In this document: one piece after another, positions 387-60,290 of the stretch
How the letters are laid out: the number at the start of each line of letters is the position of its first letter
How positions within the stretch are numbered: the stretch's first letter is position 1
Program-made: the position numbers and the translations under genes
Notes under the pieces: generated by a model
Database searches by the model: none
Seen by the model: only the letters and a program-made list of their open reading frames with translations
Told to the model about the DNA's origin: nothing
Source: Paludibacteraceae bacterium
Lineage (GTDB): Bacteria > Bacteroidota > Bacteroidia > Bacteroidales > Paludibacteraceae
Assembly (NCBI GenBank): GCA_017477325.1
Contig: JAFUWV010000001.1
Location: 62,001-126,000, forward strand
Length of the DNA stretch: 64,000 bases
Direction of reading: 5' to 3'

Positions 387-503
387 GCATAATTATACAG
401 AAATCTTAAAAATCGGCAATTTCAGAGTATGCTTAGAGATTGCTTACACTTTGCTTGACGCTTGCTTGACGGGAGTATTGTATAATTATACAAAATCTTA
501 AAA
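387..503. repeat. Pair of imperfect direct repeats in a 217-bp intergenic region
   Basis: Two copies of a roughly 24-bp sequence begin near 387 and 480. Both read ATAATTATACA, then a short A-rich run and ATCTTAAAA, with one or two small differences. Between them is a GCTT-rich stretch with two adjacent copies of GCTTGAC near 452-470. The pair lies between the end of the lipoprotein gene at 539 and the start of the DUF3098 gene, at one edge of the inserted island. I see no gene or clear promoter in 322-538. Confidence 0.5.
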
Positions 504-3227: not shown

Positions 3228-3237
3228 GCGGAGTTAG

Positions 3238-3265
3238 TTGAGAGTAGAGAGTTTTGAGTTTAGAG
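3238..3265. repeat. Degenerate heptamer array between porN and ftsX
   Basis: Four consecutive 7-bp units are visible: TTGAGAG, TAGAGAG, TTTTGAG and TTTAGAG. Less regular AGTTTG and GAGTTGAG units follow to about 3290. The array lies between the porN stop and the ftsX start. It belongs to the set of short-period junction arrays described in the findings. Confidence 0.6.
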
Positions 3266-3305
3266 AAGTTTGTCAGTTGCGAGTTGAGAGCAGATAGTTA
3301 CACAA

Positions 3306-5889: not shown

Positions 5890-5899
5890 GATTTGAATT

Positions 5900-5930
5900 G
5901 TTTAAATGTTTAAATGTTTAAAAGTTTAAA
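5900..5930. repeat. Octamer array between porM and porL
   Basis: Four consecutive units are visible: GTTTAAAT, GTTTAAAT, GTTTAAAA and GTTTAAA. They start 11 bases upstream of the porM ATG, inside the T9SS operon, so they would be transcribed in the porL-porM intercistronic RNA. Confidence 0.7.
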
Positions 5931-32179: not shown

Positions 32180-32180
32180 T

Positions 32181-32208
32181 ATGAATTATGAATTACAAAT
32201 TATGAAGT
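32181..32208. repeat. Heptamer array between susD and the GH144 gene
   Basis: Four adjacent units: ATGAATT, ATGAATT, ACAAATT and ATGAAGT. They fill nearly the whole 30-base gap between the two genes, so they are transcribed in the PUL messenger. Confidence 0.65.
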
Positions 32209-32209
32209 A

Positions 32210-33694
32210 TCATTCCGGTTGTTCTGCAAGATCAGGCAGGTTCATGAGTTGTGTGCCTGGCACAGGCCACCATGCTTTTTCCTTTGTCCACTCACCATTG
32301 GCAAAATCCCGCTGAAGGGCAGCGTCATTAAGCACCTCTTCAGCCTTATCCGTACGTACAAGGTCTATATATCTCAGCCCCCATTCACTGCAGAGTTCCA
32401 TTCGGCGTTCATCCAGTATCTGATCAACAGTAACACCTGTCAGCGTGGGCATTCCTGCACGGGTGCGGACCTCATTGAAACTAGCATCACCACTGCCTCC
32501 GTTTCTCACCTTGGCTTCTGCATTCATCAGTAACACCTCTGCATAACGGATCAGACGCACATTATTGTTTCTGCCCCACTCTGTCGAACCTTCAGTCATC
32601 TGCTCGTATGGCAGATATGCTTTACCATTATATATAGCAGAACCATCAATAGTGAAGCCTTCTTTTGTTGTCTCTCCTCCTACGAGAAAACTTGTCTCAA
32701 GTCTGACTGTCTCTCCGCGAGCCTTTGCCCAGTCAAAGAACTGACGATTATACTGCATGAAGTTCCACCCACCAATGCTGACAGGTTGTCCTCCGACAGT
32801 ACCATTGAGTGTGGCACCCATTGAGTTGAACCACTGGTCTATACCTATATAATCTCCTGTGGCTGCGCCAAAATCAGTACACTGCACCTCCATCAGGCTC
32901 TCCAAGCATAGTTTACCAGGTATCTTGAAAAGGTTGTAGTAATCAGGGTACAACTCAAATCCACCATTGATGATGATATCGTCAGTGTATGTTTCCACCT
33001 TCTTATAGTCACCTGTCAATAGAGCAAACCTTGCTGCAAGGGCCTCTGCTGTATAAGCTGTAAATGCTCCCATGTGAGGCATCTCGTTAGGACGCATTCG
33101 TTTCATGTCGGGTATCACAGAATCCAATTCGTGGAGAGCATACTCACAGACATGAGCCTGAGTGGAGCGGACAAAGCGTGTCTGACTGTTATCTTTCAGC
33201 AACACACAGTCACCAAATGAGGTTACAAGCATATAATATGCCCATGCCTCCATCACTTTCAGTTCGCCTTTATAACTAAGGTAGTTTGCATAGTCATCAG
33301 TGCCTGCGGTCAGATACTCTGCATATCTGTCAAGGGCAGTCTGGGCAGAGTTGCAAGTACGGATTATCTCATACGGTGTAACCCAGGCATTATTCAGTGC
33401 CCAGAATGAGTTGGGGCGCTGATAACCGCCACGATACCCAAACAGCAAAGCATCACCTTGATCATCTGTACGACCGGAAGTCATATCATCGTCTCTGCCA
33501 CTCCAGAGCATATTGTTTGCCCAGTGCATACCTGAAGTGCGCAACTGAGAATATGCACCTATCACAGGCTGATACATATCTGCTGTCTTAGAGTAGTCAA
33601 CCTCAGATGTTGCAATCTTATTCTCTGTGTCTATCTCAAGAAAAGAGCAGGACGAAACTGCACATATCAGAAATAAATAATATATCTTTTTCAT
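32210..33694 (-). CDS. SusD-like glycan-binding lipoprotein
   Basis: This 494-residue protein has a lipobox (AVSSC, Cys 16), the SusD helical repeats, and the conserved C-terminal block ILDERRMELCSEWGLRYIDLVR followed by WWPVPGTQLM. SusD caps the SusC channel and captures oligosaccharides at the cell surface. It lies 19 bases after susC, as usual. Confidence 0.95.
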   Translation of the reverse strand: MKKIYYLFLICAVSSCSFLEIDTENKIATSEVDYSKTADMYQPVIGAYSQLRTSGMHWANNMLWSGRDDDMTSGRTDDQGDALLFGYRGGYQRPNSFWALNNAWVTPYEIIRTCNSAQTALDRYAEYLTAGTDDYANYLSYKGELKVMEAWAYYMLVTSFGDCVLLKDNSQTRFVRSTQAHVCEYALHELDSVIPDMKRMRPNEMPHMGAFTAYTAEALAARFALLTGDYKKVETYTDDIIINGGFELYPDYYNLFKIPGKLCLESLMEVQCTDFGAATGDYIGIDQWFNSMGATLNGTVGGQPVSIGGWNFMQYNRQFFDWAKARGETVRLETSFLVGGETTKEGFTIDGSAIYNGKAYLPYEQMTEGSTEWGRNNNVRLIRYAEVLLMNAEAKVRNGGSGDASFNEVRTRAGMPTLTGVTVDQILDERRMELCSEWGLRYIDLVRTDKAEEVLNDAALQRDFANGEWTKEKAWWPVPGTQLMNLPDLAEQPE

Positions 33695-40217: not shown

Positions 40218-40232
40218 AGGGGGTGATATTAA

Positions 40233-40352
40233 GTTTGTTGAGTTTGGGAAGTTTGTAAAGTTTGAGATGTTTGTAAAGTTTGTATAGTTTGTAAAGTTTG
40301 CAAAGTTACTTATCAAACTTATCGAACCTATCGAACTTATTTAACTTACCGA
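40233..40352. repeat. Two abutting nonamer arrays of opposite orientation
   Basis: Eight consecutive 9-bp units fill 40233-40304: GTTTGTTGA, GTTTGGGAA, then mostly GTTTGTAAA with variants GAGAT, TATA and CAAA. After four bases, five units of ACTTATCGA-like sequence fill 40308-40352 (ACTTATCAA, ACTTATCGA, ACCTATCGA, ACTTATTTA, ACTTACCGA). The second set is close to the reverse complement of the first, so the whole could fold. They lie between the peptide transporter stop and the 40217 gene. Confidence 0.8.
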
Positions 40353-40364
40353 ACTTCTCTTTTG

Positions 40365-41894
40365 TTACTTAGTTGCTTCTTCCAGTTTTGGCATCATGAC
40401 AAACATAAACAGTGCCGATACAAGGCACAATGCCACGAATACTGTCCATACAGCCCACAGTGGCAGACCGCCCCAGAGGAAACCACCGACTGACACGAGG
40501 AAGTTACCTATAGCAGTAGCCACAAACCAGCCTCCCATCATCATTCCTTTATACTTCGGAGGAGCAACTTTGGAAACAAATGAGATGCCCATAGGGCTAA
40601 GCAGCAGCTCACCGAAAGTAAGTATCAGATAGGTGCCGATAAGCAGGTTAGCACCGGTGTATGTCGGGTCACCACCAGCCTCAATGACTGCTTTCTGTTC
40701 ATCAGGAGTGTTGAGCCCAATACATCCCACAGCCATCACCACATAAGCCAGAGCTGCCACAAGCATACCGTATGCTATCTTTCTTGGAGCACTCGGTTCC
40801 TTACCTTTCTTAGCCAATGCTCCGAATATTGCCATAGAGACAGGAGTCAGAGCTACCACATAGAAGGGGTTGAACTGCTGGAAGATAGGAGCAGAGAGAG
40901 TGATTCCTTCGGGAGTTATCTTAGTGTATTTGTATGCCAACACTCCACAAGCTGCAGCTATCACTACAGCAGCTACTGATTTACCCCGGACTGATTTGGA
41001 CTGGAACAAAGCAAAACATCCATACACTATGAATACCAGCATCAGCAGATTGATTATGTCGAATGCCATAGACTGTATGCCTGTACTGACAGGATTGGTA
41101 AACTCATTGGCGAAATATGTCAGTGTGAGTCCGTTCTGATGGAATGCCATCCAGAAGAAGATAACCACAGCAAAGACCAGACACAGTGCTATCACACGTT
41201 TCTTGGTCTGTTCTGCCGAGAGTTCTTCTACAGCCTGCCCTGCAGCAGCTGCCTGTTTAGCCGTATTCTCTACATGTTTGAACCAAGGACGGCAGGCATA
41301 ATAAATCACTATAGAGAGCACCAGTGATGCACATGCCACCATGAAAGCAAAGTGGTAGGAGTCGTTTACACTATATCCAAGACCTTTCTGTGCCCATTCC
41401 ATTATCTTCACAGCAGCAGTAGGAGCAAACATGGCACCTATGTTGATAGCCATATAGAAGATAGAGAATGCTGCATCACGGCGGTCAGCATATTTGGGGT
41501 CATCATACAGATTGCCCACCATCACCTGCAGGTTACCTTTGAACAATCCGGTACCGAAGCTGATAAGCACCAGTGCAGCAAGCATGGCAGCCATAGCCAC
41601 CCCTCCTCCTCCAAGAGGTACTGCAAGCAGCAGATAGCCTATAAACATTATCACGATACCGATAGTCACACACCTGCCATAGCCAATCTTGTCCGCCAAG
41701 ATACCTCCTACAAGAGGCAGGAAATAGACCAGTGCAAGGAAAGATGAATAGATAGCACCTGCAGCTCCGGGTTCAAGACCAAAATTGGCACGCAGAAAGA
41801 GTGCAAACACGGCTAACATAGTGTAGTAGCCAAATCGCTCTCCGGTATTGGCGAGAGCAAGAGCAAATAAACCTTTTGGTTGATTGTCGAACAT
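40365..41894 (-). CDS. Peptide MFS transporter (POT/PTR2 family)
   Basis: The ATG at 41894 gives MFDNQPKGLFALALANTGER followed by FGYYTMLAVFALFLRANFGL, the first POT helix with its ExxERFxYY-like motif. A longer frame to 42080 only translates a repeat array and promoter. The 509-residue protein has 12 or more helices and the DKIGYGRCVTIG loop and GTGLFKGNLQ segment of the family. It imports di- and tripeptides with protons at the inner membrane. Confidence 0.92.
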   Translation of the reverse strand: MFDNQPKGLFALALANTGERFGYYTMLAVFALFLRANFGLEPGAAGAIYSSFLALVYFLPLVGGILADKIGYGRCVTIGIVIMFIGYLLLAVPLGGGGVAMAAMLAALVLISFGTGLFKGNLQVMVGNLYDDPKYADRRDAAFSIFYMAINIGAMFAPTAAVKIMEWAQKGLGYSVNDSYHFAFMVACASLVLSIVIYYACRPWFKHVENTAKQAAAAGQAVEELSAEQTKKRVIALCLVFAVVIFFWMAFHQNGLTLTYFANEFTNPVSTGIQSMAFDIINLLMLVFIVYGCFALFQSKSVRGKSVAAVVIAAACGVLAYKYTKITPEGITLSAPIFQQFNPFYVVALTPVSMAIFGALAKKGKEPSAPRKIAYGMLVAALAYVVMAVGCIGLNTPDEQKAVIEAGGDPTYTGANLLIGTYLILTFGELLLSPMGISFVSKVAPPKYKGMMMGGWFVATAIGNFLVSVGGFLWGGLPLWAVWTVFVALCLVSALFMFVMMPKLEEATK

Positions 41895-41904
41895 AATATA
41901 TTCA

Positions 41905-41958
41905 GTTTGATGAGTTTGTAAAGTTTGTTGAGTTTGTTGAGTTTGTTGAGTTTGGTTG
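41905..41958. repeat. Nonamer array in the leader of the peptide transporter gene
   Basis: Six 9-bp units are in register: GTTTGATGA, GTTTGTAAA, three exact GTTTGTTGA, and GTTTGGTTG. They begin 11 bases upstream of the ATG at 41894 and lie within the predicted transcript leader, so copy-number change would alter the 5' untranslated region. Confidence 0.8.
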
Positions 41959-41991
41959 TAAGGAATCTGTAACAGATAACCATTCACCCTG

Positions 41992-42022
41992 CAAAGGTAC
42001 AAATATTTTTCTTTTTGTACAA
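41992..42022 (-). promoter_or_regulatory. Predicted promoter of the peptide transporter gene
   Basis: On the minus strand TTG (42020-42022), 20 bases and TACCTTTG (41992-41999) match the consensus. The leader to the ATG is about 90 bases and contains the nonamer array. Confidence 0.75.
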
Positions 42023-42039
42023 GTATTAGTATTACCTTA

Positions 42040-42067
42040 TTAAAAAAGCGAGCATATTGCCCGCTTT
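42040..42067 (-). terminator. Intrinsic terminator downstream of the endonuclease gene
   Basis: On the minus strand AAAGCGGGC, a 5-base loop, and GCTCGCTTT form a 9-bp stem with one G-U pair, followed by TTTAAT. It lies about 65 bases past the endonuclease stop (42132). Confidence 0.75.
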
Positions 42068-42131
42068 CTTTTCGATGCATTTTTTAACTTTCCCGGCTTT
42101 ATTAAATTATGCTTACTATTAGCATTAGCAG

Positions 42132-44321
42132 CTATCTTTTCATATATTCCACCACTTTTTGGCCAGTAATGGTGTACTGCTGTCCATTATGGAGGATGAT
42201 AAGTTGCCCATCTATAAGGAGTTTAGAGGCCGACGAATTTGTAGGACTTGACTTGAAACCAGAATCCTGAAACTTGAAACTTTCAACACTTGTGCCTGTA
42301 CAGGTACATCCTGAGAGGTCTGTGGTAGTGGAGTATTCATGCGAGGTAGTAGAGAGCAACTCCGCGAGGAGGACTTGCTGTGTCTGTCTCTCTCCCCAGA
42401 TATACTCAGCCAGACAGGGGTAGTCAATGAAAGGGTTGCGGTTGTGCTGTATTCGTGCCACCTCACTCTGTCTTTTTATTTCTTTTTGAGATACAGGGTC
42501 TTGCCGATGCCAGTCAAGGAGCAGTTGTTCAGCCCAAGGCTGCAACAGTAAGGGTTTATGCGTGTCAAGGAAGCTTGCAGCAGGAGTAGTCATATCCCAC
42601 TGAAGGTCAGGATAAGCGGTAAGGATATAGAAGTAAGCTCTCGCGAAATCGCCTTTATACTCATCAGCAGGCGAGAATACCCTTACAGCCGGACAGTCAG
42701 CCTGAGGTTGTCCAATAATCATAGAGCCATTGTCAAAGCCGGGATATAGGACCTCCCCTGGTGCATCATTTCCCTTGCTTCGGTTGGCAGAATAGTCAGC
42801 AGGAACAAGATGATGAAGGTCTTTGTAGGCATTATTGACTGTGCCTCCCCACCATGACTTGGGGAACATGTGCTCTATATCAAGTTCAGAGACTGAGGCA
42901 ACGGGGTTTTGCTCTGAGAAATAACGTTTGTTATTGGAATACATATCGAGCACGAGCATACTATTTTCTTCTCTGTCAGTATGATAGAAGGCATCCCATG
43001 TATGGTGTGTTCCTGAGCCGTAGGTATATCGTATTCCCCCACTAATGATTCTGCCGAGCAGTCTGAACAGTGCAGTGTCGGAAGAGAGGTTGATGGATGA
43101 GTAGTAGTCAGCTTGCAGTTGGCTCCAGTCAGTAGCAGGTATATCCTCACTGACAAGGTGTCCCATATAGACCTCTTTGTGGCTTTGCTTGTATCCCACA
43201 TAGTTCTGCAGACGGCTGTAAATGAGCAGTGTATCACCTTTGTGAATACTACTCGGCTCAATGATGGCTCCCCCCGCAGCAGTAAGGGCATAGACATAGA
43301 TAGTATCGTTGTCCCAACAGAGGTTGAATGTGAGTCCTCCTGTAGAAGTGCTGACAGCGATAGTGTCTGATGCCACACATCCTCTGATATACCACCATTC
43401 AGTGCTAGTCTCGTTGTCTGTTAGTTCTTCCATCCGGCTGAGGGCGTCTTGCACAGTGTAAGGGTCATCCGCCTCACCTGAGTGATATAATTCAGAGCAT
43501 ACATTGATGCTGACAGGCACTTCTTTTCTGACAAGTTGCTCATCTAATCCTGTGGCAGACATGATGAGAGTGGCACTATACCGTTCTTTCTTTGTAGTAC
43601 TGAAATTGAGTTGCAGCACTCCTCCTTCTTTAGGCAGTGAACGCATACTGACAGAGAAACAGTGAGTAGTATCAGCCACAGACAGATTGATGTTAGAGGC
43701 GAGGTTGCGGCTGCTTACATCTACCTCCACCATTGTCTCAACCCTGCCCGTTGAGAGGTGTTCGTGTCCAAGGTCAATAGTTTTCAGACAGACTATCTCT
43801 CCTCTAAGCGGAGCTGGGTCAGGAGCATCTATGACAATCTTACTCAGATAGAAGCGGTTGTAAGAATTGTTTTGTGCGGCAATGGTGATAGTGTTGACCT
43901 CTGTATTGCCATCAAACGAGAACTCATAGTCAGTAAGTGTAGCACCCCCTGTGAAGGGCTGAGAGAGGTCACCCAGTAGGAAGGACTTATTGGTAGTGTC
44001 TTGTTTGGCACTATATGCGGCAGCTGTGATGGTAATCTTTGTTGGTTGGTATGTATCTTTAAGAGTGACAGTTATACTTCCCGCAGCAGAGGTTGTACCA
44101 AGTTTTAATCCATATCCTGTTTTAGCAAGGTAGCAGTTCTGAGAACTGACGCTCTCAGCATAGTCCTCTCCCTGAGCAATATAGTCTGCGGGTGAGGAGG
44201 ATGTCAGGCGCTGACTCTTGTCAGAACCGGTGCCACTATCTTTGAAGACGAGGGTGTAGTTGTCTGCTAAACATAAATATGAGATGGCAGAGCAGAGGAG
44301 TATAACCAATGTGCGCTTCAT
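42132..44321 (-). CDS. Secreted endonuclease I family protein with OB-fold domain and possible T9SS tail
   Basis: The ATG at 44321 gives a signal peptide (MKRTLVILLCSAISYLCLA). The 729-residue protein has an N-terminal beta region (20-165), an Ig-like segment (176-275), an OB-fold region resembling DUF6359 (288-392), and an endonuclease I domain (about 405-635) with DIEHMFPKSWW (482-492), DLHHLVPADYSANRSKGN (501-518) and RNPFIDYP. A linker at about 680-692 is encoded by a heptamer array. The last residues (DGQLIILHNGQQYTITGQKV) match the tail of the PUL protein at 36819. It probably degrades extracellular DNA or RNA. Confidence 0.85.
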   Translation of the reverse strand: MKRTLVILLCSAISYLCLADNYTLVFKDSGTGSDKSQRLTSSSPADYIAQGEDYAESVSSQNCYLAKTGYGLKLGTTSAAGSITVTLKDTYQPTKITITAAAYSAKQDTTNKSFLLGDLSQPFTGGATLTDYEFSFDGNTEVNTITIAAQNNSYNRFYLSKIVIDAPDPAPLRGEIVCLKTIDLGHEHLSTGRVETMVEVDVSSRNLASNINLSVADTTHCFSVSMRSLPKEGGVLQLNFSTTKKERYSATLIMSATGLDEQLVRKEVPVSINVCSELYHSGEADDPYTVQDALSRMEELTDNETSTEWWYIRGCVASDTIAVSTSTGGLTFNLCWDNDTIYVYALTAAGGAIIEPSSIHKGDTLLIYSRLQNYVGYKQSHKEVYMGHLVSEDIPATDWSQLQADYYSSINLSSDTALFRLLGRIISGGIRYTYGSGTHHTWDAFYHTDREENSMLVLDMYSNNKRYFSEQNPVASVSELDIEHMFPKSWWGGTVNNAYKDLHHLVPADYSANRSKGNDAPGEVLYPGFDNGSMIIGQPQADCPAVRVFSPADEYKGDFARAYFYILTAYPDLQWDMTTPAASFLDTHKPLLLQPWAEQLLLDWHRQDPVSQKEIKRQSEVARIQHNRNPFIDYPCLAEYIWGERQTQQVLLAELLSTTSHEYSTTTDLSGCTCTGTSVESFKFQDSGFKSSPTNSSASKLLIDGQLIILHNGQQYTITGQKVVEYMKR

Positions 44322-44337
44322 ATAGATTATATATAAG

Positions 44338-45543
44338 TCAAAGTGATTGCATAAATGTGTCAAACAGCAGTTTCTGACTGCCTGAGACTATGATGTGATG
44401 ATTTCCTATAGGGTCATTAAGGAAATATCCGGCAGAGCCAGGCAGACTAATCTTGACCTGTGTACGGCAGAGGTGAGTCTCATTCATATTTTCTATAAGC
44501 AGTCCTTGTGCGGCATAGTGTCTTTTCAGGTCACCGCTGACTTTCAAGAGTGTAACCAGCCCTGTAGGCATTTTTCCTTTTATAGCGACCCCTATACCGG
44601 ACTCGAAATGAGTGTCATATTCATAGGATGTTATCATGTCCAGAGGAATAGTGCAGTGAGCAAAGACGCACTCGTCATTCTCGGGATTGATACGTGAAGG
44701 ATTAGCCTGGAACCCCGTCTGCTGAGTGAGAGCATGAGATATCATCATAGTAACAAGTGCAGGCACATCTCCCTCACAACCTGCAGGTATACCCTCCTGA
44801 TTAAGCAGAGCCAGAGCCAGGCAGCCAGTGTTTTTGACAGAGGTCAAGAGGTCAAAACAGCGCAGTGTGAGTCCACTGAGATTGTGCTTGTCCACAAGTC
44901 TGCGAAGTGCTCCGTATATCTCCAGAGCCCCTATAAAATAGTCACTCGGACAAGTTTTTATCCGTTTTCTTGCAGCAACAGGATAGTCACGCCTGCGTAT
45001 TTCCTCCAGCAGTTCTGTCATGCTGATTTCCTCTATCCCTACACCCAGTTTCTGTTGTATGGCTTGAGCATCATAATCAGATGAAATAAGCCAGTCGGAT
45101 GGTTTGCCGATGACACCTATCTTCTTTCCTCTGAGCTGAGCCTTTGCCGCTTCCACCCCGGCAAGCAGCATCATTTGTCTTCCTACATATTCTGCAGTAC
45201 CATGCAATATCTGCGCCTCTTTGCCTTGTCCTCGGAGCCATGAGAGAATCTCCATGCTGGCAGCCAGAGAGTTGCTTGAGCCTGAAGTGAGTAGCAGGAC
45301 TTTGCGGCTTCTAACAGCCTCATTCTCACTGAAGAGTGTTTTGAACAGTCCTTCCGTGCCACCTGTGCGGATATAAATAAGACTCAGGTCGGCAGTGCCA
45401 TAACTGCTATAGTCGTCTTCGTGATTAACAAGAACGCCCTGCCCTGTGATTTTTTCAATAGCACCAAGCCACCGTGCTGTGGCATCAGCTACCGCCTTCT
45501 TGTTGTGGATAGGCGATGTAAGAGTAAAGATGTTAATTGTCAT
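44338..45543 (-). CDS. Fucose/arabinose isomerase-like protein
   Basis: The ATG at 45543 is used (MTINIFTLTSPIHNKKA). The 401-residue protein has sequence like the middle and C-terminal domains of L-fucose/L-arabinose isomerases: IGVIGKPSDWLISS near 147, LTLRCFDLL near 220, and GCLALALLNQEGIPAGCEGD near 237. Complete FucI has nearly 600 residues, so this is a shorter family member; the C-terminal portion contains HCTIP. The substrate is unknown. It ends 16 bases before the endonuclease start, so the two may be co-transcribed. Confidence 0.7.
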   Translation of the reverse strand: MTINIFTLTSPIHNKKAVADATARWLGAIEKITGQGVLVNHEDDYSSYGTADLSLIYIRTGGTEGLFKTLFSENEAVRSRKVLLLTSGSSNSLAASMEILSWLRGQGKEAQILHGTAEYVGRQMMLLAGVEAAKAQLRGKKIGVIGKPSDWLISSDYDAQAIQQKLGVGIEEISMTELLEEIRRRDYPVAARKRIKTCPSDYFIGALEIYGALRRLVDKHNLSGLTLRCFDLLTSVKNTGCLALALLNQEGIPAGCEGDVPALVTMMISHALTQQTGFQANPSRINPENDECVFAHCTIPLDMITSYEYDTHFESGIGVAIKGKMPTGLVTLLKVSGDLKRHYAAQGLLIENMNETHLCRTQVKISLPGSAGYFLNDPIGNHHIIVSGSQKLLFDTFMQSL

Positions 45544-45553
45544 TGCTATTAAT

Positions 45554-45602
45554 AGTTTCAAGTTCCAAGTTTCAGGTTTCAGGTTTCAGGTTCCAGGTTT
45601 CA
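45554..45602. repeat. Heptamer array upstream of the isomerase-like gene
   Basis: Seven exact-register 7-bp units: AGTTTCA, AGTTCCA, AGTTTCA, GGTTTCA, GGTTTCA, GGTTCCA and GGTTTCA. The array starts 10 bases beyond the isomerase-like ATG (45543), in the region between it and the divergent NadR-like gene. Confidence 0.85.
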
Positions 45603-45614
45603 GGTCCGAAAAGT

Positions 45615-45700
45615 ACTTTACAAACTTAACTAACCTGAGACGTTCCGGTGCAACGTCTCTACGAACTTTACAAACTCTCCAAACTTTACAAACTTATAAA
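45615..45700. repeat. Nonamer array interrupted by a palindromic element
   Basis: Units ACTTTACAA and ACTTAACTA (45615-45632) and then ACTTTACAA, ACTCTCCAA, ACTTTACAA and ACTTATAAA (45665-45700) surround the palindrome at 45637-45659. ACTTTACAA is a rotation of the reverse complement of the GTTTGTAAA unit seen at 40233-40304. Confidence 0.75.
45637..45659. repeat. 23-bp palindromic element inside the nonamer array
   Basis: GAGACGTT (45637-45644), a CCGGTGC loop and AACGTCTC (45652-45659) form a perfect 8-bp stem. The sequence resembles the short GTAGAGACG-type palindromes that are dispersed in some Bacteroidetes and other bacterial genomes (from memory). It breaks an otherwise continuous array. 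Confidence 0.7.
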
Positions 45701-45712
45701 CTTATTTTTTCG

Positions 45713-45744
45713 TTTGCAAAGATAATACTTTTTTTCTACTTTTG
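45713..45744 (+). promoter_or_regulatory. Predicted promoter of the NadR-like gene, almost leaderless
   Basis: TTTG (45713-45716), exactly 20 bases and TACTTTTG (45737-45744) match the consensus. The ATG at 45749 begins 4 bases after TACTTTTG, so transcription would start at or within the first codons, implying a leaderless messenger or a start further downstream. Confidence 0.75.
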
Positions 45745-45748
45745 CACT

Positions 45749-46261
45749 ATGAAAAAGAAAATAGGCATTCTCGGAGCTGAATCAACAGGCAAAAGCACTC
45801 TTGCAAAGCAGTTGGCAGAACATTTCTCGGGCATATATATAAAGGAGTATGCACGCGAGTATGTTGAGGCACTAAATCACCCATACACAGAGAGAGATGT
45901 GGAAACTATTGCCCGAAGACAGATAGAGGAGTTGTCGGAACAGTATGATGCAGACTATGTATTCTTCGATACCGAGCTGATAATCACCAAGGTGTGGTTT
46001 CAGGACAAGTACGGTATTGTGCCCGAATGGCTGGAGGAGGCCATGCTCACACTACGCCCTGACTTCTGCCTGCTTCTCATGCCTGACCTAAGGTTTGTAG
46101 ATGACCCTGTCAGAGAAAACCCCCACAGAAGAGAGTATCTGACCAGGCTATACGAGTCTGAACTGACGCATTATTCCATTCCATACACTTGCATATCGGG
46201 CTATGGCGACAAACGACTTCAGTATGCCATCAGAGCTATAGAGAATGTTGCCTGCAAATAA
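45749..46261 (+). CDS. NadR-like P-loop ATPase/kinase
   Basis: This 170-residue protein begins MKKKIGILGAESTGKSTLAK, with a Walker A loop GAESTGKST, and continues with YIKEYAREYVEALNH and VFFDTELIITKVWFQDKYG, as in the kinase domain of NadR (AAA_28 family). NadR phosphorylates nicotinamide riboside, but this protein lacks an adenylyltransferase domain, so its substrate is unproven. The longer frame upstream from 45446 is repeat sequence. Confidence 0.85.
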   Translation: MKKKIGILGAESTGKSTLAKQLAEHFSGIYIKEYAREYVEALNHPYTERDVETIARRQIEELSEQYDADYVFFDTELIITKVWFQDKYGIVPEWLEEAMLTLRPDFCLLLMPDLRFVDDPVRENPHRREYLTRLYESELTHYSIPYTCISGYGDKRLQYAIRAIENVACK

Positions 46262-46289
46262 TAAAACATTGCTCTATTTTAAGAAATGA

Positions 46290-46320
46290 TTGGATATTTG
46301 AAATAAAAGCAGTACCTTTG
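46290..46320 (+). promoter_or_regulatory. Predicted promoter of the hypB operon
   Basis: TTG (46290-46292), 20 bases and TACCTTTG (46313-46320) match the consensus. The leader to the hypB ATG is about 50 bases. The downstream genes to 51893 are all on the same strand, with no other good promoter seen. Confidence 0.7.
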
Positions 46321-46371
46321 CACTCTGTATAAGAAAACTTATTCTAATTAGTGGAAAACACATAATCCGAA

Positions 46372-47043
46372 ATGGACGAAGTAAAGATTATTGAAATCAA
46401 GAAGAGTATCTTTGCCGATAACGACCTTGATGCTGAACATTTGCGCGGTGAACTGAAGAGCCGCGGAGTATATCTTCTGAACTTGATGTCTGCCCCCGGC
46501 AGCGGGAAGACAACCACTCTGATACAGACAATCAACCGCCTGAAAGACCAACTGCATATAGCAGTAATGGAGGCTGATATTGACAGCGATGTGGATGCTG
46601 TCAAGATAAAAGAAGCCACAGGCATTCCCTCAATTCAACTTCATACAGGAGGCATGTGCCATCTTGATGCAGAGATGACACGCCAAGGACTGGATAACGT
46701 ACAGATAGATGGTACGGACCTTGTCATACTGGAAAATGTAGGCAACCTGGTGTGCCCTGCGGAGTTTGACACAGGTGCTGTCAGGAATGCCATGATACTG
46801 TCTGTGCCCGAAGGTCATGACAAACCGCTTAAGTACCCATTGATGTTCTCTGTGTGCGATGTGGTGGTCATAAACAAGATAGATGTCATGCCATATTTTG
46901 ACTTCGACCTTGAGAAGTGCAAAGAATACATCCACATGCGCAACCCCAAGGCAACTGTCATTCCTGTCTGTGCCAAGACGGGTGAAGGAATAGACAAGTT
47001 TGCCGACTGGCTCCTGACAGAAGTGAGAAACTGGCAGAAATAA
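46372..47043 (+). CDS. hypB: Hydrogenase nickel incorporation GTPase HypB
   Basis: This 223-residue GTPase has Walker A SAPGSGKTTTL near residue 42, the switch EADIDSDVDA near 66, the family motif LHTGGMCHLDAEM near 92, and NKID near 165. HypB with HypA delivers nickel to metalloenzyme precursors, classically [NiFe]-hydrogenase. No N-terminal His-rich nickel store is present. No hydrogenase subunit or HypC, D, E, F gene is in the window. Confidence 0.95.
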   Translation: MDEVKIIEIKKSIFADNDLDAEHLRGELKSRGVYLLNLMSAPGSGKTTTLIQTINRLKDQLHIAVMEADIDSDVDAVKIKEATGIPSIQLHTGGMCHLDAEMTRQGLDNVQIDGTDLVILENVGNLVCPAEFDTGAVRNAMILSVPEGHDKPLKYPLMFSVCDVVVINKIDVMPYFDFDLEKCKEYIHMRNPKATVIPVCAKTGEGIDKFADWLLTEVRNWQK

Positions 47044-47072
47044 TCTTCACAGAGGAGTGCCATTCCCCCTCC

Positions 47073-47104
47073 AATCTTTAATTTTTAAATCTTTAAATCT
47101 CCAA
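47073..47104. repeat. Octamer array between hypB and the flavoprotein gene
   Basis: Four 8-bp units in register: AATCTTTA, ATTTTTAA, ATCTTTAA and ATCTCCAA. They lie in the 76-base gap, ending 15 bases before the next ATG (47120). Confidence 0.6.
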
Positions 47105-47119
47105 ATACTTATATCTACC

Positions 47120-49960
47120 ATGCCCCAGATGTCTGACAAGTTTGTCCCAAAGCACATGGGTGACAAGAATCCGAATCCGAAACTCTTAAAGTTTGTACAA
47201 CAAGTTACTGACCGTGTCCCTGGAAAGATAAAGATGACCACCGAAGCCCCTGAGTATTGGGGACTGGCTTGCATCTTTGAAGACGAGATGGATGCCACCA
47301 CCCGTGAAGCCTCTCTTGACCTCCTGCTGGATATGCTCTCGAAAAAGTTCCTGCAGGTGCGCGAGCATCATAAGTATCAGGAACTGGTAGAATGGAACCG
47401 TCAGAAACACTATACCCCTGATGACAAGTCGTTTGATGAGTTGCTTCAGACCCTTGCCAACTTAGGTATTGTAGAGTTCGACTATGGAGACCGCTACACC
47501 AAAGATGGTCCTATACCGGGCACTACATATAACTTTGAAGACCGTGAATACTGGGTGCCGATGTTTGTTCCGGGTAGTGCTGAATATACCAACATGAGCA
47601 CCTATCTCATGGACAAACACCCCGAACTGGCAATGTTCTTTGAGCGCATGACCTTCCTGCCGCTGGAGAAGATTACGCCTATGGTACCTATGGGTGGAGC
47701 CGGTATAGGTATGCATGTTATTCCTGTAGAGAAAGCCATCTCTATGGAGAACGAGACAGCAGACATAGAACATATCTCCTATTGGATGAAGCGCTATGAA
47801 GGTCACTTGGCAGTTGGTATATGTTCATGCCGCTATGGAAGAAAGAAACTTGACGAAGGTTGTGCAGACGACTATCGTGACTGGTGTATAGGTGTAGGAG
47901 ATATGGCAGAATACTTGGTAGAGACCAATCGTGGACACTATATAACCTACGATGAGGCAATGGCTATCCTGAAGAAAGCGGAAGACAACGGTTTTGTACA
48001 CCAGATAACCAACATAGACGGTGAAGGTAAGATATTCGCTATCTGCAACTGCAATGTCAAGATATGCAACGCCCTCCGTACTTCACAACTCTTCAACACT
48101 CCCAACATGTCCCGCAGTGCATACGTGGCCAAGGTTGACCCCAAGAAATGTGTGGCTTGCGGACGTTGTGTGGAATATTGCCCTGCAGGAGCAGTCAAAC
48201 TGGGACAGAAACTCTGCACCTCTCATGGTGAGATTCAGTATCCGAAGCAGGAACTGCCTGATGCAGCCAAGTGGGGCCCAGAGAAATGGACAGAAGACTA
48301 TCGCGACAAGAACCGCATCAACTGCTATCCTACAGGTACTTCACCCTGCAAGACAGCCTGTCCTGCACATATAGCAGTGCAAGGATATCTGAAGAAAGCA
48401 GCAGAAGGCAAATATCGTGAGGCTCTTGAACTCATCAAACGTGAGAATCCGTTCCCTGCAGTGTGTGGCCGTATATGCAACCGCCGCTGTGAAGATGCAT
48501 GTACCCGTGGAACAATAGACAACCCAGTAGCAATAGATGCTGTTAAGAAATTCATTGCAGAACAAGACCTGCATGCTGAGACGCGCTTTGTTCCTGAGAT
48601 AAATATAGCTTCCAGTGTACAAAAACATTGGGAGGAGAAGATCGCAATCATCGGTGGCGGTCCTGCCGGTCTTAGCTGTGCATATTATCTTGCTGTGGCA
48701 GGATACAAACCCACAGTGTTTGAGAAGAACGAAATGCCCGGAGGTATGCTCCGCTATGGCATTCCTTCATATAAACTGGAGAAAGAAGTGATAGATGCCG
48801 AGATAGACATCATGCGTGAAATAGGAGTAGAGATAAAAACAGGTGTAGAAGTAGGCAAAGACATCACTATCCAGCAACTGCGAGAACAAGGTTACAAAGG
48901 TTTCTATGTAGCCATCGGCTGCCAGGGTGGACGCCTGCCGGGAATACCCGGTGAGACCCTTGAAGGCACTACTACTGCTATTGATTTCCTGCACAATGCC
49001 AATTGTGGCAAGGTGAAAGTAAGTGGTAATGTTGTGGTAGTAGGTGGAGGCAATGTGGCTATAGATGCTGCAAGGGTAGCAATGCGCAGTGGTGCTGCTA
49101 CAGTTACCATGCTCTCGCTTGAGACAGAAGACATCATGCCAGCTTCCCATGAAGAACGCCGTGAGGCAAGAGAAGACGGAGTGGTTATCAATCCAGGCTG
49201 GGGACCAATGAAAGTAGAAGGGCAAAAGTCGAAAGTGGAAAGTATCACTTTCAAGAAGTGTGTTTCTGTCTTTGACGACCAGCATCGTTTTGCACCTAAG
49301 TTTGACGAGAACGAGACAATCACACTGGATGCAGATATGGTTATCTTCGCCATTGGTCAGACAGTAGTACTGAAAGACCTTCTGAAAGACACCAAGGTAG
49401 AATTCTTCCGCGGTGTATATCCTGTGGCAGACAAACTTACATATCAGACAGCAGAACCTGACATCTTCGTAGGCGGTGATGTATTCACAGGTCCCAAGTT
49501 TGCCATAGATGCCATTGCTGCAGGCAAAGAAGCAGCCGAGAGCCTTCACCGCTTTGTACAGCATGGCCACATGACAATAGGCAGGAACCGTCGTGACTTC
49601 ATTGAACTCAACAAACAGGATATAGTTGTAGAGTCGTATGACAACAGCTCCCGCCAACAGGCTGCAGATGTGGCTCAGGCTAACCGTTTTGCCGAGTATA
49701 ATGGTACTCTTACTGAAGAGCAGGTGCGTCTTGAGACAGCCCGCTGCCTTGGCTGCGGTGCTTCTGTAGTAGATGAGAACCGTTGTATAGGTTGTGGTAT
49801 TTGTACAACCAAGTGCGGTTTTGATGCTATTCATCTGCACCGTGAGCATCCTGAGGCAAGTCACATGGTAACTTCAGAAGACAAGTTCAGTGCTATTCTG
49901 CCCTACATGATCAAGCGTGCAGGCAAGATAGCAATCAAGGGTCTCAGCCCGAAGAAATAA
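47120..49960 (+). CDS. Multi-cluster iron-sulfur flavoprotein, GltD-like oxidoreductase
   Basis: The ATG at 47120 gives 946 residues. Residues 1-230 are unrecognised. Cysteines at 235, 237, 248, 256, 309, 311 and 316 suggest one or more Fe-S or metal sites. A 4Fe-4S ferredoxin motif (CVACGRCVEYC) is at 344-354. From about 400 a GltD-like module has CGRICNRRCEDAC (449-461), an FAD motif IGGGPAG near 511 and an NAD(P) motif VVGGGNVAIDA near 640. A second ferredoxin segment (CIGCGICTTKC, 889-899) ends the protein. It should move electrons between NAD(P)H and other carriers. It lies between hypB and hypA. A heptamer array encodes part of 697-708. Confidence 0.85.
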   Translation: MPQMSDKFVPKHMGDKNPNPKLLKFVQQVTDRVPGKIKMTTEAPEYWGLACIFEDEMDATTREASLDLLLDMLSKKFLQVREHHKYQELVEWNRQKHYTPDDKSFDELLQTLANLGIVEFDYGDRYTKDGPIPGTTYNFEDREYWVPMFVPGSAEYTNMSTYLMDKHPELAMFFERMTFLPLEKITPMVPMGGAGIGMHVIPVEKAISMENETADIEHISYWMKRYEGHLAVGICSCRYGRKKLDEGCADDYRDWCIGVGDMAEYLVETNRGHYITYDEAMAILKKAEDNGFVHQITNIDGEGKIFAICNCNVKICNALRTSQLFNTPNMSRSAYVAKVDPKKCVACGRCVEYCPAGAVKLGQKLCTSHGEIQYPKQELPDAAKWGPEKWTEDYRDKNRINCYPTGTSPCKTACPAHIAVQGYLKKAAEGKYREALELIKRENPFPAVCGRICNRRCEDACTRGTIDNPVAIDAVKKFIAEQDLHAETRFVPEINIASSVQKHWEEKIAIIGGGPAGLSCAYYLAVAGYKPTVFEKNEMPGGMLRYGIPSYKLEKEVIDAEIDIMREIGVEIKTGVEVGKDITIQQLREQGYKGFYVAIGCQGGRLPGIPGETLEGTTTAIDFLHNANCGKVKVSGNVVVVGGGNVAIDAARVAMRSGAATVTMLSLETEDIMPASHEERREAREDGVVINPGWGPMKVEGQKSKVESITFKKCVSVFDDQHRFAPKFDENETITLDADMVIFAIGQTVVLKDLLKDTKVEFFRGVYPVADKLTYQTAEPDIFVGGDVFTGPKFAIDAIAAGKEAAESLHRFVQHGHMTIGRNRRDFIELNKQDIVVESYDNSSRQQAADVAQANRFAEYNGTLTEEQVRLETARCLGCGASVVDENRCIGCGICTTKCGFDAIHLHREHPEASHMVTSEDKFSAILPYMIKRAGKIAIKGLSPKK
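49211..49245. repeat. Heptamer array inside the flavoprotein coding sequence
   Basis: Five 7-bp units are in register: AAAGTAG, AAGGGCA, AAAGTCG, AAAGTGG and AAAGTAT. They encode the KVEGQKSKVES segment in frame, between two conserved parts of the GltD-like module. Confidence 0.6.
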
Positions 49961-49987
49961 TTGTCGCGACATAAACTTGCTCTCACG

Positions 49988-50344
49988 ATGCACGAACTTG
50001 GAATAGTCTTTTATATTATCCGCGATGTGAAGAAAGCCGCAGAGGAGAACAGCGTGAAGCATGTCTCAGCTGTGGTGATGAACATAGGTGAGGTATCGAC
50101 CATTGTGCCCGAGTATCTCACCGACTGTTGGCGTTGGGCGGCAGACAAGGAAGAGTTGCTCAAAGGTTGCGAACTAAAGATAAACACTATTCCGGCTCTT
50201 ACCCATTGTGACAGTTGCGGCAGAGACTACCCTACAGTCAAGCACGGCAAGACTTGTCCGCATTGCGGCAGCACTGAAACATGGCTTCTCCAAGGAAGAG
50301 AAGTAGAGATAAAAGAAATAGAGGTTAAGCCACAGTGCTGTTAA
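49988..50344 (+). CDS. hypA: Hydrogenase nickel incorporation protein HypA
   Basis: This 118-residue protein begins MHELGIVFYII, with the N-terminal Met-His-Glu nickel-binding motif, and has the zinc-binding cysteines CDSCG near residue 76 and CPHCG near 95. HypA receives nickel and passes it with HypB to a target enzyme. The ATG at 49988 is chosen over the earlier TTG at 49961 because it creates the conserved MHE. It follows the flavoprotein gene by 27 bases, separated from hypB by that gene. Confidence 0.93.
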   Translation: MHELGIVFYIIRDVKKAAEENSVKHVSAVVMNIGEVSTIVPEYLTDCWRWAADKEELLKGCELKINTIPALTHCDSCGRDYPTVKHGKTCPHCGSTETWLLQGREVEIKEIEVKPQCC

Positions 50345-50407
50345 GAAAAAACACAAGAACAAAATACAGAAGAACCAAATACTAATTTATATACTCTCAA
50401 TACAATC

Positions 50408-50734
50408 ATGGCCTGTTTTATAGTACCCCTTACTCAGGCGATAGCAACCTCGGTCTATCGCAAATATGCAAAGCATACCGACAATTTTGCAGGTCGCAAT
50501 CTGCTTACCCTTGAGAAGATGCTCTGGGGTGGCTCGGTGATGCTTATTGTTGACCACATCATCAACGGAGAACTCACTTGGCGTTTCCCCTTCTTCACCG
50601 CTCTTGAGACAGACGGCGGCGGGGCTGTGATGCTGCATGAGATTCTCACCGTAGGTCTGCCCATCTCTCTTGCAGTCACACTTGTTTGGGCCGCATGGTG
50701 TTTCTTTAAAGAACGCCGTGCTGTCAACGCATGA
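50408..50734 (+). CDS. Small predicted membrane protein, unknown function
   Basis: This 108-residue protein has three predicted hydrophobic segments (about 1-15, 38-55 and 78-98) and a central PFFTALETDGGGAVMLHEI loop. It is not a family I recognise. It lies 63 bases after hypA and 55 bases before the DUF5692 gene. It begins MACFIVPLTQAIATSVYRK. Confidence 0.7.
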   Translation: MACFIVPLTQAIATSVYRKYAKHTDNFAGRNLLTLEKMLWGGSVMLIVDHIINGELTWRFPFFTALETDGGGAVMLHEILTVGLPISLAVTLVWAAWCFFKERRAVNA

Positions 50735-50789
50735 CTATAAATAACAACCAATTAACAATAATTTAATAACCAATTAAAACAATCACTTT

Positions 50790-51893
50790 ATGTTTTTTCA
50801 AGTTTATGGAGAACATGCCCTTGCACAATGGGGTATGTTGATTGTAGTCCTCGTTGGACTTATTCTCTTCAATGAGTTTGCCCGCCGTACCAAATGGGGC
50901 GGAGCTATCACTTTCTTTGCCATTCCTCTGGCACTGACAGTTTATTTCATTGCTATTGCCATCGGTGCACGCATGGGTGCTGAGTGGGCACTGAACAATC
51001 AGACCCATGTTTACATGAACGGCTGGTTCCACTACGCAAAACTCTATGCTGCTCTGACAGGCTGTATCGGCTTCATGATGATCAAGTATGAGTGGGGCAT
51101 CGGCAAGCAACACTGGTTCAAACCATTCCCCTTCATCATCGTGGCTATCAACATTCTGATTGCTGTTTGCTCAGACTTCGAGTCTGCAATCATGGGTTGG
51201 AACAAGTGGTGGCTCTCATCAGAAGGCGTTTGGCTCTATGGTGGCTGGCACAATGTATTCAACGGTGTTGCAGGTATCCTCAACATCTTCTGTATGACCG
51301 CATGGTGGAATGTGTATCCTTCAAAAGACCGCAAGGATATGATTTGGGCCGACATGACCTGGGTTTACATCCTTGTTTATGACATCTGGAACTTTGCTTA
51401 CACCTACAACTGTCTGCCTACTCACAGCTGGTATTGCGGTATTGCACTGCTGCTTGCTCCTACAGTTGCTGCTCTGCTTTGGAACCGCGGCGGTTGGATT
51501 CAGAACCGTGCTAACACCCTCGCTATCTGGTGCATGTTTGCTCAGGTATTCCCACTCTTCCAAGAGACCTTCTTCAACGGCAAACAATTCTTTAATTGGG
51601 CTGTTCTGCCAACACAGTATGTAAACGGTATTGAGACAATCAACGCTATCTACGCACAATCAGGTCTTGGCGAAGAAGTAGTTGCTCACACCACAGTTGC
51701 TGCCGAAGGTGCTACAGCAGCAGACCCGACTGCAATGCTTGTAATCAGTGCTTTGGCTCTCATTACCAACGCTGTTGCTCTCTGCTACATCATCTATCAG
51801 GCTAAGGTTCGTCATATCAATCCTTACAAGGAAGATGTGTTCATCGACCAGAAGTACTACAAAGATTCTATTGCACGTGCAGAAATCAACTGA
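50790..51893 (+). CDS. DUF5692 family multi-pass membrane protein
   Basis: This 367-residue protein has about eight predicted membrane helices and many Trp residues. Conserved-looking polar motifs are GWFHYAKLYAALTGCIGFMM, YGGWHNVFNGVAGIL and TYNCLPTHSWYCGIALL, which carry several His and Cys. DUF5692 has no known function. Its place at the end of the hypB-flavoprotein-hypA transcript suggests a role linked to nickel or electron transfer (inference). Confidence 0.85.
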   Translation: MFFQVYGEHALAQWGMLIVVLVGLILFNEFARRTKWGGAITFFAIPLALTVYFIAIAIGARMGAEWALNNQTHVYMNGWFHYAKLYAALTGCIGFMMIKYEWGIGKQHWFKPFPFIIVAINILIAVCSDFESAIMGWNKWWLSSEGVWLYGGWHNVFNGVAGILNIFCMTAWWNVYPSKDRKDMIWADMTWVYILVYDIWNFAYTYNCLPTHSWYCGIALLLAPTVAALLWNRGGWIQNRANTLAIWCMFAQVFPLFQETFFNGKQFFNWAVLPTQYVNGIETINAIYAQSGLGEEVVAHTTVAAEGATAADPTAMLVISALALITNAVALCYIIYQAKVRHINPYKEDVFIDQKYYKDSIARAEIN

Positions 51894-51936
51894 TAACGTG
51901 TGTTACAGAATATAGATTAGCAGATAACCGCTAATT

Positions 51937-51969
51937 AAAAGAAGAGGCGCCGAGCGTCTCTTCTTTTTT
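51937..51969 (+). terminator. Intrinsic terminator after the DUF5692 gene
   Basis: AAGAGGCGC, a CGA loop and GCGTCTCTT pair with one G-U pair and are followed by CTTTTTT. The A-rich upstream side means it can also serve the convergent yifB gene (bidirectional). Confidence 0.85.
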
Positions 51970-51992
51970 ATAAAATATGTAATCAGGAGGAG

Positions 51993-53549
51993 TTAACCTG
52001 CCCAGTTCGAACGGTCGAGAGAACGATATGCAATAGCTTCGCTCAGATGTTTCAGTGAGATATCTACAGGTTTTTCAGGCGTGGACAATGGGTCGAGGTC
52101 AGCTATGGTGCGGGCCACCTTGAGTATTCTGTCGTAGGCCCGTGCCGAGAGACCAAGATGCTCTATGGCATTGCGTATGAGAGAGGTGCATTGTTCATTG
52201 AGAACGCAGTACTTGCGTAGCATACGAGGCGTCATCTGAGCATTCGAGTGAATATCTGTACCTTGAAAACGCAACTCTTGTATCTGTCGTGCTTTTACAA
52301 CTCTTTTACGTATGTCTGCACTATGTTCACCGGGCTCTTGCTTGTTGAGTTCGTTGAAAGGCACTGGGGTAATCTCCACCTGAATATCAATGCGGTCAAG
52401 TAACGGACCTGATATACGACTCAGGTATCGCTGTCTTATAGCGGGTGTACACGTGCATTCGTGAGTAGGGTCGTTGTAGTGTCCGCATGGGCATGGGTTC
52501 ATGGCTGCCACAAGCATGAAGGCAGCAGGATACTCAACCGACATCTTCACTCGCGAGATACATATTTTATGGTCTTCCAGCGGCTGACGCATCACTTCTA
52601 GTGCAGAGCGCTTATATTCGGGCAACTCGTCAAGAAAGAGAACACCATTGTGTGCAAGGCTTATCTCTCCGGGCATAGGATTGACGCCTCCACCTACCAG
52701 TGCAACATCAGACACCGTGTGGTGAGGTGATCGGAACGGACGAATAGTGATAAGCGACTGACGAGCAGCAAGTGCACCGGCCACAGAATGTATCTTGGTT
52801 GTCTCTAAAGCCTCGGCAAGTGTAAGCGGAGGCAGTATTCCCGGCAGGCGTTTTGCCATCATACTCTTACCTGCACCCGGAGGGCCGACCATCAGTAAGT
52901 TATGAGAGCCTGCTGCTGCCACCTCAAGCGCACGCCTCACATTATGTTGACCTCTAACATCGGAGAAGTCGAGGTCGGTGACACTTTCCTGATGCTCAAA
53001 AAGACTCAAGATATCTATATGCATAGGCTCTGGTTGTTGCAAACCATTAAGCATACGAACCACATCTTGCAGTGAATTCATGCCATATATCTCTATACCC
53101 TCCACCACTGCGGCTTCGGCGGCATTGTCTCCAGGCAGAATAACACCCTTAAAACCTTCTTGCTTAGCCCTGACTGCAATATTAAGAGCGCCTCTGACAG
53201 GTCTCAGTGAACCATCAAGCGACAGCTCGCCAAGAAGCAGATATTGACTGAGGCGCGCTGTAGCAACTTGCTCTGATGCGGCAAGAATGGCTATGGCCAG
53301 ACTAAGGTCGAACGATGCCCCTTCTTTCTTTAAATCGGCAGGAGCCATGTTGATGACAACACCTTTCTGCGGAAATTGATAAGCATTGACAGCTATCGCT
53401 GAGCGTATTCGTTGTTCACTCTCTTTGACTGCATTGTCAGGCAGCCCGACAATGTCAAATTCACCAGCGAAATGTGTAAGATTAGCTTCTACATCGATGA
53501 TGACCGCATCAATGCCAAGCAAAGCTGCCGTGTAGGTTTTGACGAGCAT
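51993..53549 (-). CDS. yifB: YifB/ComM-like magnesium chelatase AAA ATPase
   Basis: This 518-residue protein has the YifB plan: N-terminal domain with [20 protein letters not shown] near 32 and [18 protein letters not shown] near 70, then Walker [13 protein letters not shown] near 222, Walker B and [19 protein letters not shown], and a C-terminal domain. ComM in other bacteria is a helicase promoting branch migration during transformation. The function in this phylum is not shown. Confidence 0.93.
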
Positions 53550-53569
53550 ACAAGGTTAAGTTTTTGATA

Positions 53570-53596
53570 AGTTTGACAGGTTAGGAAAGTTTGTTA
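53570..53596. repeat. Nonamer array between tamB-like and yifB genes
   Basis: Three 9-bp units, AGTTTGACA, GGTTAGGAA and AGTTTGTTA, follow a longer related unit beginning near 53559. They lie in the 59-base gap. Confidence 0.5.
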
Positions 53597-60233: not shown

Positions 60234-60290
60234 TAATTATACACAAGTATTCGCGGCAGGTTATCGGATTAATAATGAAATATAGCGTTT

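Follow-up and report, generated by a model that had tools for sequence, protein, structure and literature searches.

Short tandem arrays with preferred periods and genome-specific units at gene junctions of a Paludibacteraceae genome and its relatives

The gene junctions of a Paludibacteraceae bacterium (draft assembly GCA_017477325.1, here G000; 1.89 Mb, 71% completeness) carry many short, degenerate tandem arrays, which we describe from a stretch of 64,000 nucleotides (contig JAFUWV010000001.1, positions 62,001 to 126,000 of the forward strand; "the window"), from further stretches of the same genome and from its relatives. The arrays are in excess over chance, keep to certain periods, use recurring units at different junctions, differ in these units from species to species and differ among relatives at one orthologous junction. 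Judged from these sequence patterns, they are probably intergenic minisatellites of fast turnover that are amplified from a genome-specific library of words and are largely neutral. Short arrays would arise and turn over fast by local amplification, either through replication slippage or through duplication of several units, in favoured steps of 7, 8 and 11 bp across the genus and also of 9 bp in the species of G000, the step length being perhaps set by the polymerase. A limited library of words, in G000 AGTTTGNNN, ATTATGN, GGTTACN, RGTTTCA, AGTTCTAGT and others, would resurface at unrelated junctions and show, at the variable base, a preference particular to the genome (GGTTACN being the one family examined), a behaviour that can be likened to that of eukaryotic satellite DNA.

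The main sample consisted of the window and 20 stretches of 20 kb from G000, together 464 kb with 238 junctions and 71 kb of intergenic DNA; the additional stretches were picked after the 9-bp matches were known, so that the period-9 count is possibly inflated. Arrays were detected by a lag-identity scan (at least three units and at least 75% lag identity), joined in the window by Tandem Repeats Finder (TRF), and 20 dinucleotide shuffles served as the null model. Genes were called by our own codon score, and the junction limits are therefore approximate. For periods 5 to 13 the intergenic DNA held 24, 55, 56, 19, 31, 1, 4, 0 and 0 arrays, as compared with shuffle means of 35.7, 28.5, 5.3, 4.0, 0.8, 1.1, 0, 0.1 and 0.1. 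A first-pass annotation of the window had proposed a scatter of arrays over gene junctions in both orientations, with more than one fixed period, and this is borne out: both orientations occur, and periods 7, 8 and 9 stand far above the shuffled sequence. Heptamers are the most abundant class, periods 10, 12 and 13 are at chance level, and period 5 shows no excess. The arrays occupy 4,466 of the 71,062 intergenic bases, with a median of 4.1 copies and a maximum of 20, and they are largely kept out of coding sequence, about 376 kb of which contained 21, 12 and 7 arrays at periods 7, 8 and 9. A pattern search of the whole of G000 for three successive units of AGTTTNNNN gave 85 matches, versus 8 with the reversed pattern.

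The same regime is seen in the relatives. We took 20 stretches of 14-20 kb each from the same genus, with the presence of a PTR2 gene as the sole selection criterion; they contained 49, 19, 1, 1 and 13 arrays at periods 7, 8, 9, 10 and 11, against 3.0, 2.6, 0.3, 0.3 and 0.2 in their shuffles. This excess indicates that the 7/8/11 regime is genus-wide, with a weak showing in the closest relative, G020, where 110 kb held 2, 3 and 4 arrays at periods 7, 8 and 11 versus 0.8, 0.8 and 0. Of the genomes sampled, G000 alone has period 9 as a major class; elsewhere it reached 4 versus 0.1 shuffled in G019 and 2 versus 0.2 in G017 (a set from G004, with zero junctions called, was left out of these per-genome counts). 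Eighteen usable stretches from other families of the order (two with fewer than 2,000 bases were left out) gave a total of 14 arrays at periods 7-9 versus 6.7 shuffled. Their period-10 count was 5 versus 0.4, and all five arrays came from one genome, G060, whose lineage may have a different favoured step length; the stretch concerned (L217, 1-20000) combines the five period-10 arrays with three of period 7 within 20 kb.

An origin of the arrays in faulty assembly, or by chance in spacers rich in A+T, is extremely improbable. The draft state and incomplete recovery of G000 could be held in its favour, but the shuffle controls and the reversed-pattern control speak against it, as do the far weaker signal in the other families of the order and the presence of arrays in most of the 20 separately assembled relatives.

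The arrays do not share one common core but fall into several unrelated unit families. Those with 7-bp units include ATTATGN, GGTTACN, RGTTTCA and AGTTTAA; 8-bp families include GGTTTGTA and TGTTTAAA, 9-bp families AGTTTGNNN, AGTTCTAGT and AGTTNCTTA, and there is an 11-bp family, CGTTTACGTCT. The main families consist of a six-base core with one or three variable bases. The first-pass annotation had noted an (A/G)GTTT core in many units and spoken of several periods with one core, and GTTT is indeed enriched, being present in 38 of 113 consensus units versus 10.9% of random intergenic words; the combination of several periods with one core nevertheless fails, as the window arrays at 32181 (ATTATGA) and 47073 (ATNTTTAA) lack GTTT altogether.

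Words recur at different junctions far more often than expected. An unambiguous unit was available for 58 of 113 arrays, and among these 101 pairs had a six-base word in common, where random intergenic words gave an expectation of 19 (maximum 39 in 200). Word sharing is also higher within than between genomes (143/829 versus 200/3,192 over all pairs, the former count including G019 stretches that had been selected for ATTATG matches). With these stretches and all 9-mers removed, same-genome sharing was 100/709 versus 0.077 under label permutation, a value that none of 500 permutations reached; when G000 was left out it was 19/92, reached by 5 of 500. Unit words are thus genome-specific, and families that are abundant in some species are absent from close relatives. 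Three successive units of AGTTTGNNN were found 75 times in G000; of 36 same-genus genomes G035 alone had matches, 7 in number, and the 24 genomes searched elsewhere in the order gave a single match. The corresponding ATTATGN pattern was present in 12 of 61 genomes (127 matches in G019, 63 in G000, 34 in G071 and 1-6 in nine others) and in none of the remaining 49, which include G020 and G024, the closest by PTR2 identity. GGTTACN was found in 12 of 41 genomes, with between 48 matches (G000) and 1, the reversed control giving 1 or 2 in five genomes. Its first variable base was T in 30 of 48 rows from G000 versus 0 of 74 rows from G035, G026, G003 and G006, in a tally made by eye on overlapping rows in which one later base of G026 was a T.

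A simple alternate explanation for the recurrence of words is that slippage is purely local, that no library exists and that slippage-prone words recur by convergence. This explanation is unlikely, yet it is supported by the occurrence of the same words in distant taxa. A scan of public genomes for four units of AGTTTGNNN returned at least 99 loci in many phyla; the first matches of 34 of these 99 lay within open reading frames (ORFs) of at least 150 codons, and among the 65 of them outside such long ORFs the first match was (AGTTTGTAA)n in 14. Many bacteria, moreover, show a preference for heptamers (Mrazek 2007, as cited in PMC4679880). Against convergence, close relatives differ in their words although their replication machinery is presumably the same, and two arrays of one genome share a word more often than arrays of different genomes do. 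The mixed-triplet form of G000 is also unusual among these 99 loci, since 73 of the first matches had identical triplets.

Slippage would be the amplifying step in our preferred account, and some spreading or word-favouring step would generate the library. It is possible, although we put this forward only tentatively, that an active process spreads words within the genome and favours steps of 7, 8, 9 or 11 over 10, 12 and 13; each species might then have gained a word set and a variable-base bias peculiar to it. If words do spread in this manner, an intragenomic copying process is implied.

How units multiply within an array can be followed in the 9-bp family, where the triplet after AGTTTG takes 23 different forms in 120 units of 35 runs (these data rest on the 85 exact AGTTTNNNN matches and miss degenerate units). 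The same triplet was repeated within an array 34 times versus 15.3 expected, with a maximum of 25 in 2000 shuffles, so variants appear to have been amplified locally. Intergenic arrays with periods of 14, 18 and 21 numbered 19, 13 and 6 against about none in shuffles, and together with the homogenised variant units these are signs of local duplication of several units. Other candidate explanations found no support. A change of period by a one-base indel within a junction would predict word sharing between arrays of different period at the same junction, and the 30 such pairs gave 0.093 versus 0.085 for 3,944 different-junction pairs (P = 0.42). Loss of mismatch repair does not fit, as MutS was found in 38 of 41 genomes, including G000, and copying by reverse transcriptase is without support, no RVT_1 match being present in the 71% of G000 that is available. 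A supply of stop codons by periods that are not multiples of three is not indicated either, with stops in 33/75 sense and 33/75 antisense units of G000. In the relatives the figures were 43/95 and 34/95 (P 0.21). Where an array lay no more than 15 bp from a stop codon there was a lean to the sense side, with 13/20 sense versus 7/20 antisense (P 0.18) in one set and 24/51 versus 18/51 (P 0.26) in the other.

Several observations weigh against the neutral library account. The choice of period is not absolute, as in G000 period 6 is roughly twice as frequent as in shuffles, and in G019 periods 10 and 12 each account for two arrays versus 0.1 and 0. Different arrays do not clearly have their triplets in a common order (P 0.40 for dimers and 0.06 for trimers), which leaves block copying unsupported. 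Two-copy duplications are nearly without excess in array-free intergenic DNA (6 versus 5.3 at period 7, 1 versus 1.8 at period 8, 2 versus 0.3 at period 9 and 2 versus 0 at period 11); slow stepwise slippage predicts such an excess, and array births would accordingly be rare or involve several units at once. Finally, at co-directional junctions GTTT-type arrays lean to the antisense orientation by 21 to 9, in a tally made without a significance test; a neutral model does not require such a lean.

The lag rule finds ten arrays between genes of the window, with periods of 7, 8, 9 or 11 bp; GldL and GldM genes mark the host as a member of the Bacteroidota. The arrays and an associated palindrome are as follows.

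424..456, plus strand: 11-bp array AGTTTGCTTAG, 3 copies (lag scan); missing from the list of the first-pass annotation.
3236..3290, plus strand: degenerate 7-bp arrays AGTTNAG / AGTTGNG; 3240-3261 and 3270-3290 by the lag rule.
5893..5930, plus strand: 8-bp array TGTTTAAA, 4.8 copies (TRF, lag scan), at the GldL/GldM junction.
32178..32210, plus strand: 7-bp array ATTATGA of the ATTATGN family, 4.7 copies (TRF); 32178-32202 by the lag rule.
40229..40307, plus strand: 9-bp array with unit AAGTTTGNN, about 8 copies (TRF, lag scan).
40308..40356, minus strand: inverted 9-bp array, AAGTTCGAT on the minus strand (TRF), adjoining the preceding array.
41902..41956, plus strand: 9-bp array with unit AGTTTGTTG, 6 copies (TRF, lag scan), upstream of the PTR2 start.
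45554..45605, plus strand: 7-bp array with unit RGTTTCA, 7.4 copies (TRF, lag scan), at a junction of divergent genes.
45637..45659, no strand: dispersed palindrome GAGACGTTCCGGTGCAACGTCTC, at the edge of which the adjoining 9-bp array starts.
45657..45702, minus strand: 9-bp array with unit CTTTACAAA, AGTTTGTAA on the minus strand (TRF); 45657-45695 by the lag rule.
47073..47106, plus strand: 8-bp array ATNTTTAA, 4.2 copies (TRF, lag scan).

Eleven places had been named in the first-pass annotation, and eight of them hold arrays. At 45615 only about two units precede the palindrome and the real array begins at 45657, so that this entry was displaced; 9692 is merely a two-copy TAAGTCG (TRF), and 53570 comprises three badly matching units that neither method calls. 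The arrays at 40231 and 41904 overlap long mechanical ORFs. They are read as intergenic because the PTR2 alignment starts only at residue 43-62 in the 23 closest relatives and because codon scoring places gene starts at 40217 and 41894, and the window arrays are non-coding. The array at 40229..40307, whose unit family is nearly restricted to G000 within the genus, occupies the junction of PTR2 (40365-41894, minus strand) and gene B (39540-40217, minus strand); the lag rule merges it with its inverted neighbour into 40229-40348, where TRF splits the two. The C-terminal part of gene B is kept in 20 of 20 relatives examined; its N-terminal part diverges strongly across relatives and contains coding repeats in some. 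A two-copy direct repeat of 31 bp with 93% identity lies at 60172-60234 of the window.

Probable turnover is illustrated by the junction before PTR2, which is comparable in 15 relatives with the same upstream gene (a gene not shared by G000 and its closest relatives). Arrays were present in 11 of the 15; period 7 was called nine times and period 8 three times, and the words include AAACAAT, AATTGAG, ACGAGACC, AGAAGACC and AAGATTG; several extend across the stop codon. One word is common to G018 and G034 and has a near match in G004, which suggests that some of the arrays were probably inherited. This array rate is higher than that over all junctions of the 20 relatives, 79/179 for periods 7-12 (P 0.02, uncorrected), and 79/179 in turn compares with 5% in shuffles. 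The junction behind PTR2, which holds the bipolar 9-bp array in G000, is short and array-free in G020 and G024.

The absence of arrays behind PTR2 in these two relatives is one reason to regard a regulatory role as rather unlikely. In principle, the arrays could be binding sites or RNA elements, acting for example in translation control or termination, with a protein and a word particular to each species. The form of the main families, a constant six-base core with one or three variable bases, would suit such a role, as would the concentration of mismatches in few unit columns (19 of the 48 arrays that allowed this test), the identical words at many loci of one genome and the antisense lean of the GTTT-type arrays, and a role of this kind has been proposed for TAACTGA repeats (MacGregor 2015, PMC4679880). 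However, column-wise concentration is also produced by local amplification of variants, the sense units show no significant excess of stop codons, and the arrays have no preference for a type of junction, with 91 co-directional, 15 divergent and 7 convergent cases versus 87.7, 17.5 and 7.8 expected from length; nor do they cluster beyond what junction length predicts. A general hairpin role was rejected, z falling below -2 in 6 of 74 arrays and 6 of 80 controls. On this evidence a general function is presumably absent. Two bipolar islands, in which the 9-bp unit occurs in both orientations, do fold into long hairpins with a 9-bp rhythm: L012 13620-13765 (z -5.4) and window 40229-40360, where the two adjoining arrays can form a single long hairpin (DNA fold, minimum free energy -18.3, z -3.6). 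A third stretch, window 45548-45706, gave no strong fold (z -1.0).

Dispersed palindromes offer a further route. If replication stalled at their hairpins, arrays might be seeded there as by-products of elements like repetitive extragenic palindromic (REP) sequences or miniature inverted-repeat transposable elements (MITEs), which we consider doubtful. The palindrome GAGACGTTCCGGTGCAACGTCTC is found at 12 places in G000 with up to two mismatches (reversed control 2), and near some of these there are GAGAC..GTCTC palindromes that are related but differ in their centres. Five of 12 copies of GAGACGTT..AACGTCTC have an array within 8 bp, whereas for random intergenic intervals the share with an array within 20 bp is 15.9% (P 0.03); in the L220 case the distance was taken from the sequence itself, as the computed value was an overlap. 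Of 45 hairpins with a stem of at least 8, 7 have an array no more than 20 bp away, versus 6.1% (P 0.019), and the 9-bp units at C4:4409 and at window 45657 prolong the end of the palindrome. Nevertheless, the palindrome is absent near most arrays, and both association tests are weak, mutually dependent and uncorrected for multiple testing. Apart from the arrays, an all-against-all comparison of intergenic DNA with arrays masked, aimed at flanks in common that might betray a mobile carrier, gave 52 similar pairs, and a dispersed intergenic repeat was noted at L010 3180-3479, L012 14767-15112, L017 5856-6190 and L017 11867-12137 (matches of 33 to 83 bp, about 85-97% identity).

The neutral library account, if correct, concerns a kind of array that is not new. 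The first-pass annotation went too far in stating that no described element was of this type, as long simple sequence repeats (LSSR), the heptamers of cyanobacteria and Xanthomonas and the TAACTGA repeats are all of the same kind. Cyanobacterial heptanucleotide repeats go by the name of short tandemly repeated repetitive (STRR) sequences. They too are tandem, intergenic and represented by several word families per genome; the present arrays differ in their Bacteroidota host and in having periods 8, 9 and 11 besides 7. Eukaryotic satellite libraries consist of a pool of words held in common, from which different words are amplified in each species and variants are homogenised.

Repeats with units of 5-11 nucleotides, heptamers leading, have been described in scattered species (Mrazek 2007, via PMC4679880; the LSSR are also cited in PMC4692102), and a polymerase contact of seven nucleotides was suggested as the cause of the heptamer lead (PMC4679880). 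In the terms given there, tandem units above expectation occur here at periods 7, 8, 9 and 11, with no such excess at periods 5 and 10 in G000; heptamers are commonest in G000 and relatives alike, and slippage is proposed for both. The present arrays differ in being degenerate, in the major place of period 9 in one species and in the genome-specific word libraries found across the genus. In archaea, repeats of 6-11 bp are likewise in strong excess in a few genomes and in lesser excess in several more (PMC4060949), and bacterial satellites have been described of which some are heptamer-derived (PMC6749651).

The TAACTGA arrays of Beggiatoaceae, some Cyanobacteria and five Bacteroidetes (MacGregor 2015, PMC4679880) are likewise intergenic heptamers of patchy distribution; according to that account long arrays occur in a few Bacteroidetes, Paludibacter with two sets among them, and some arrays adjoin other heptamer repeats. 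An adjacent pair of TAACTGA units had no exact match in the 71%-complete G000. The BOGUAY genome, as described there, has one dominant word placed just before start codons, in contrast to the many words without fixed position seen here. Three tandem heptanucleotides are known from Calothrix PCC 7601 (cited in PMC4692102), and the heterogeneous heptamer arrays of Xanthomonas (GGGAATC-type) and Nostoc (GGGGA(C/T)T), as presented in PMC4692102, resemble ours in being intergenic with variable positions. Those arrays are G-rich quadruplex formers, whereas arrays of the G000 type are mostly A+T-rich, and the Xanthomonas arrays are reported to have, for the most part, the same neighbouring genes in two species, whereas the junctions compared here differ between species. 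In the titles and opening lines of abstracts that our literature searches returned, PMC4679880 apart, we found no period 7, 8 or 9 arrays or word libraries in Bacteroidales.

Species-level genomes with arrays at 79 of 179 junctions make the birth, spread and loss of minisatellites measurable, and the arrays may be useful as strain markers. As in eukaryotic satellite DNA, related species share families that are amplified differently, here ATTATGN and GGTTACN (each in 12 of the genomes searched), with the difference that these arrays are tiny and interspersed between bacterial genes. The kind of array is already known from STRR and LSSR; what is added here is the choice of periods, the word libraries and the comparison across a genus.

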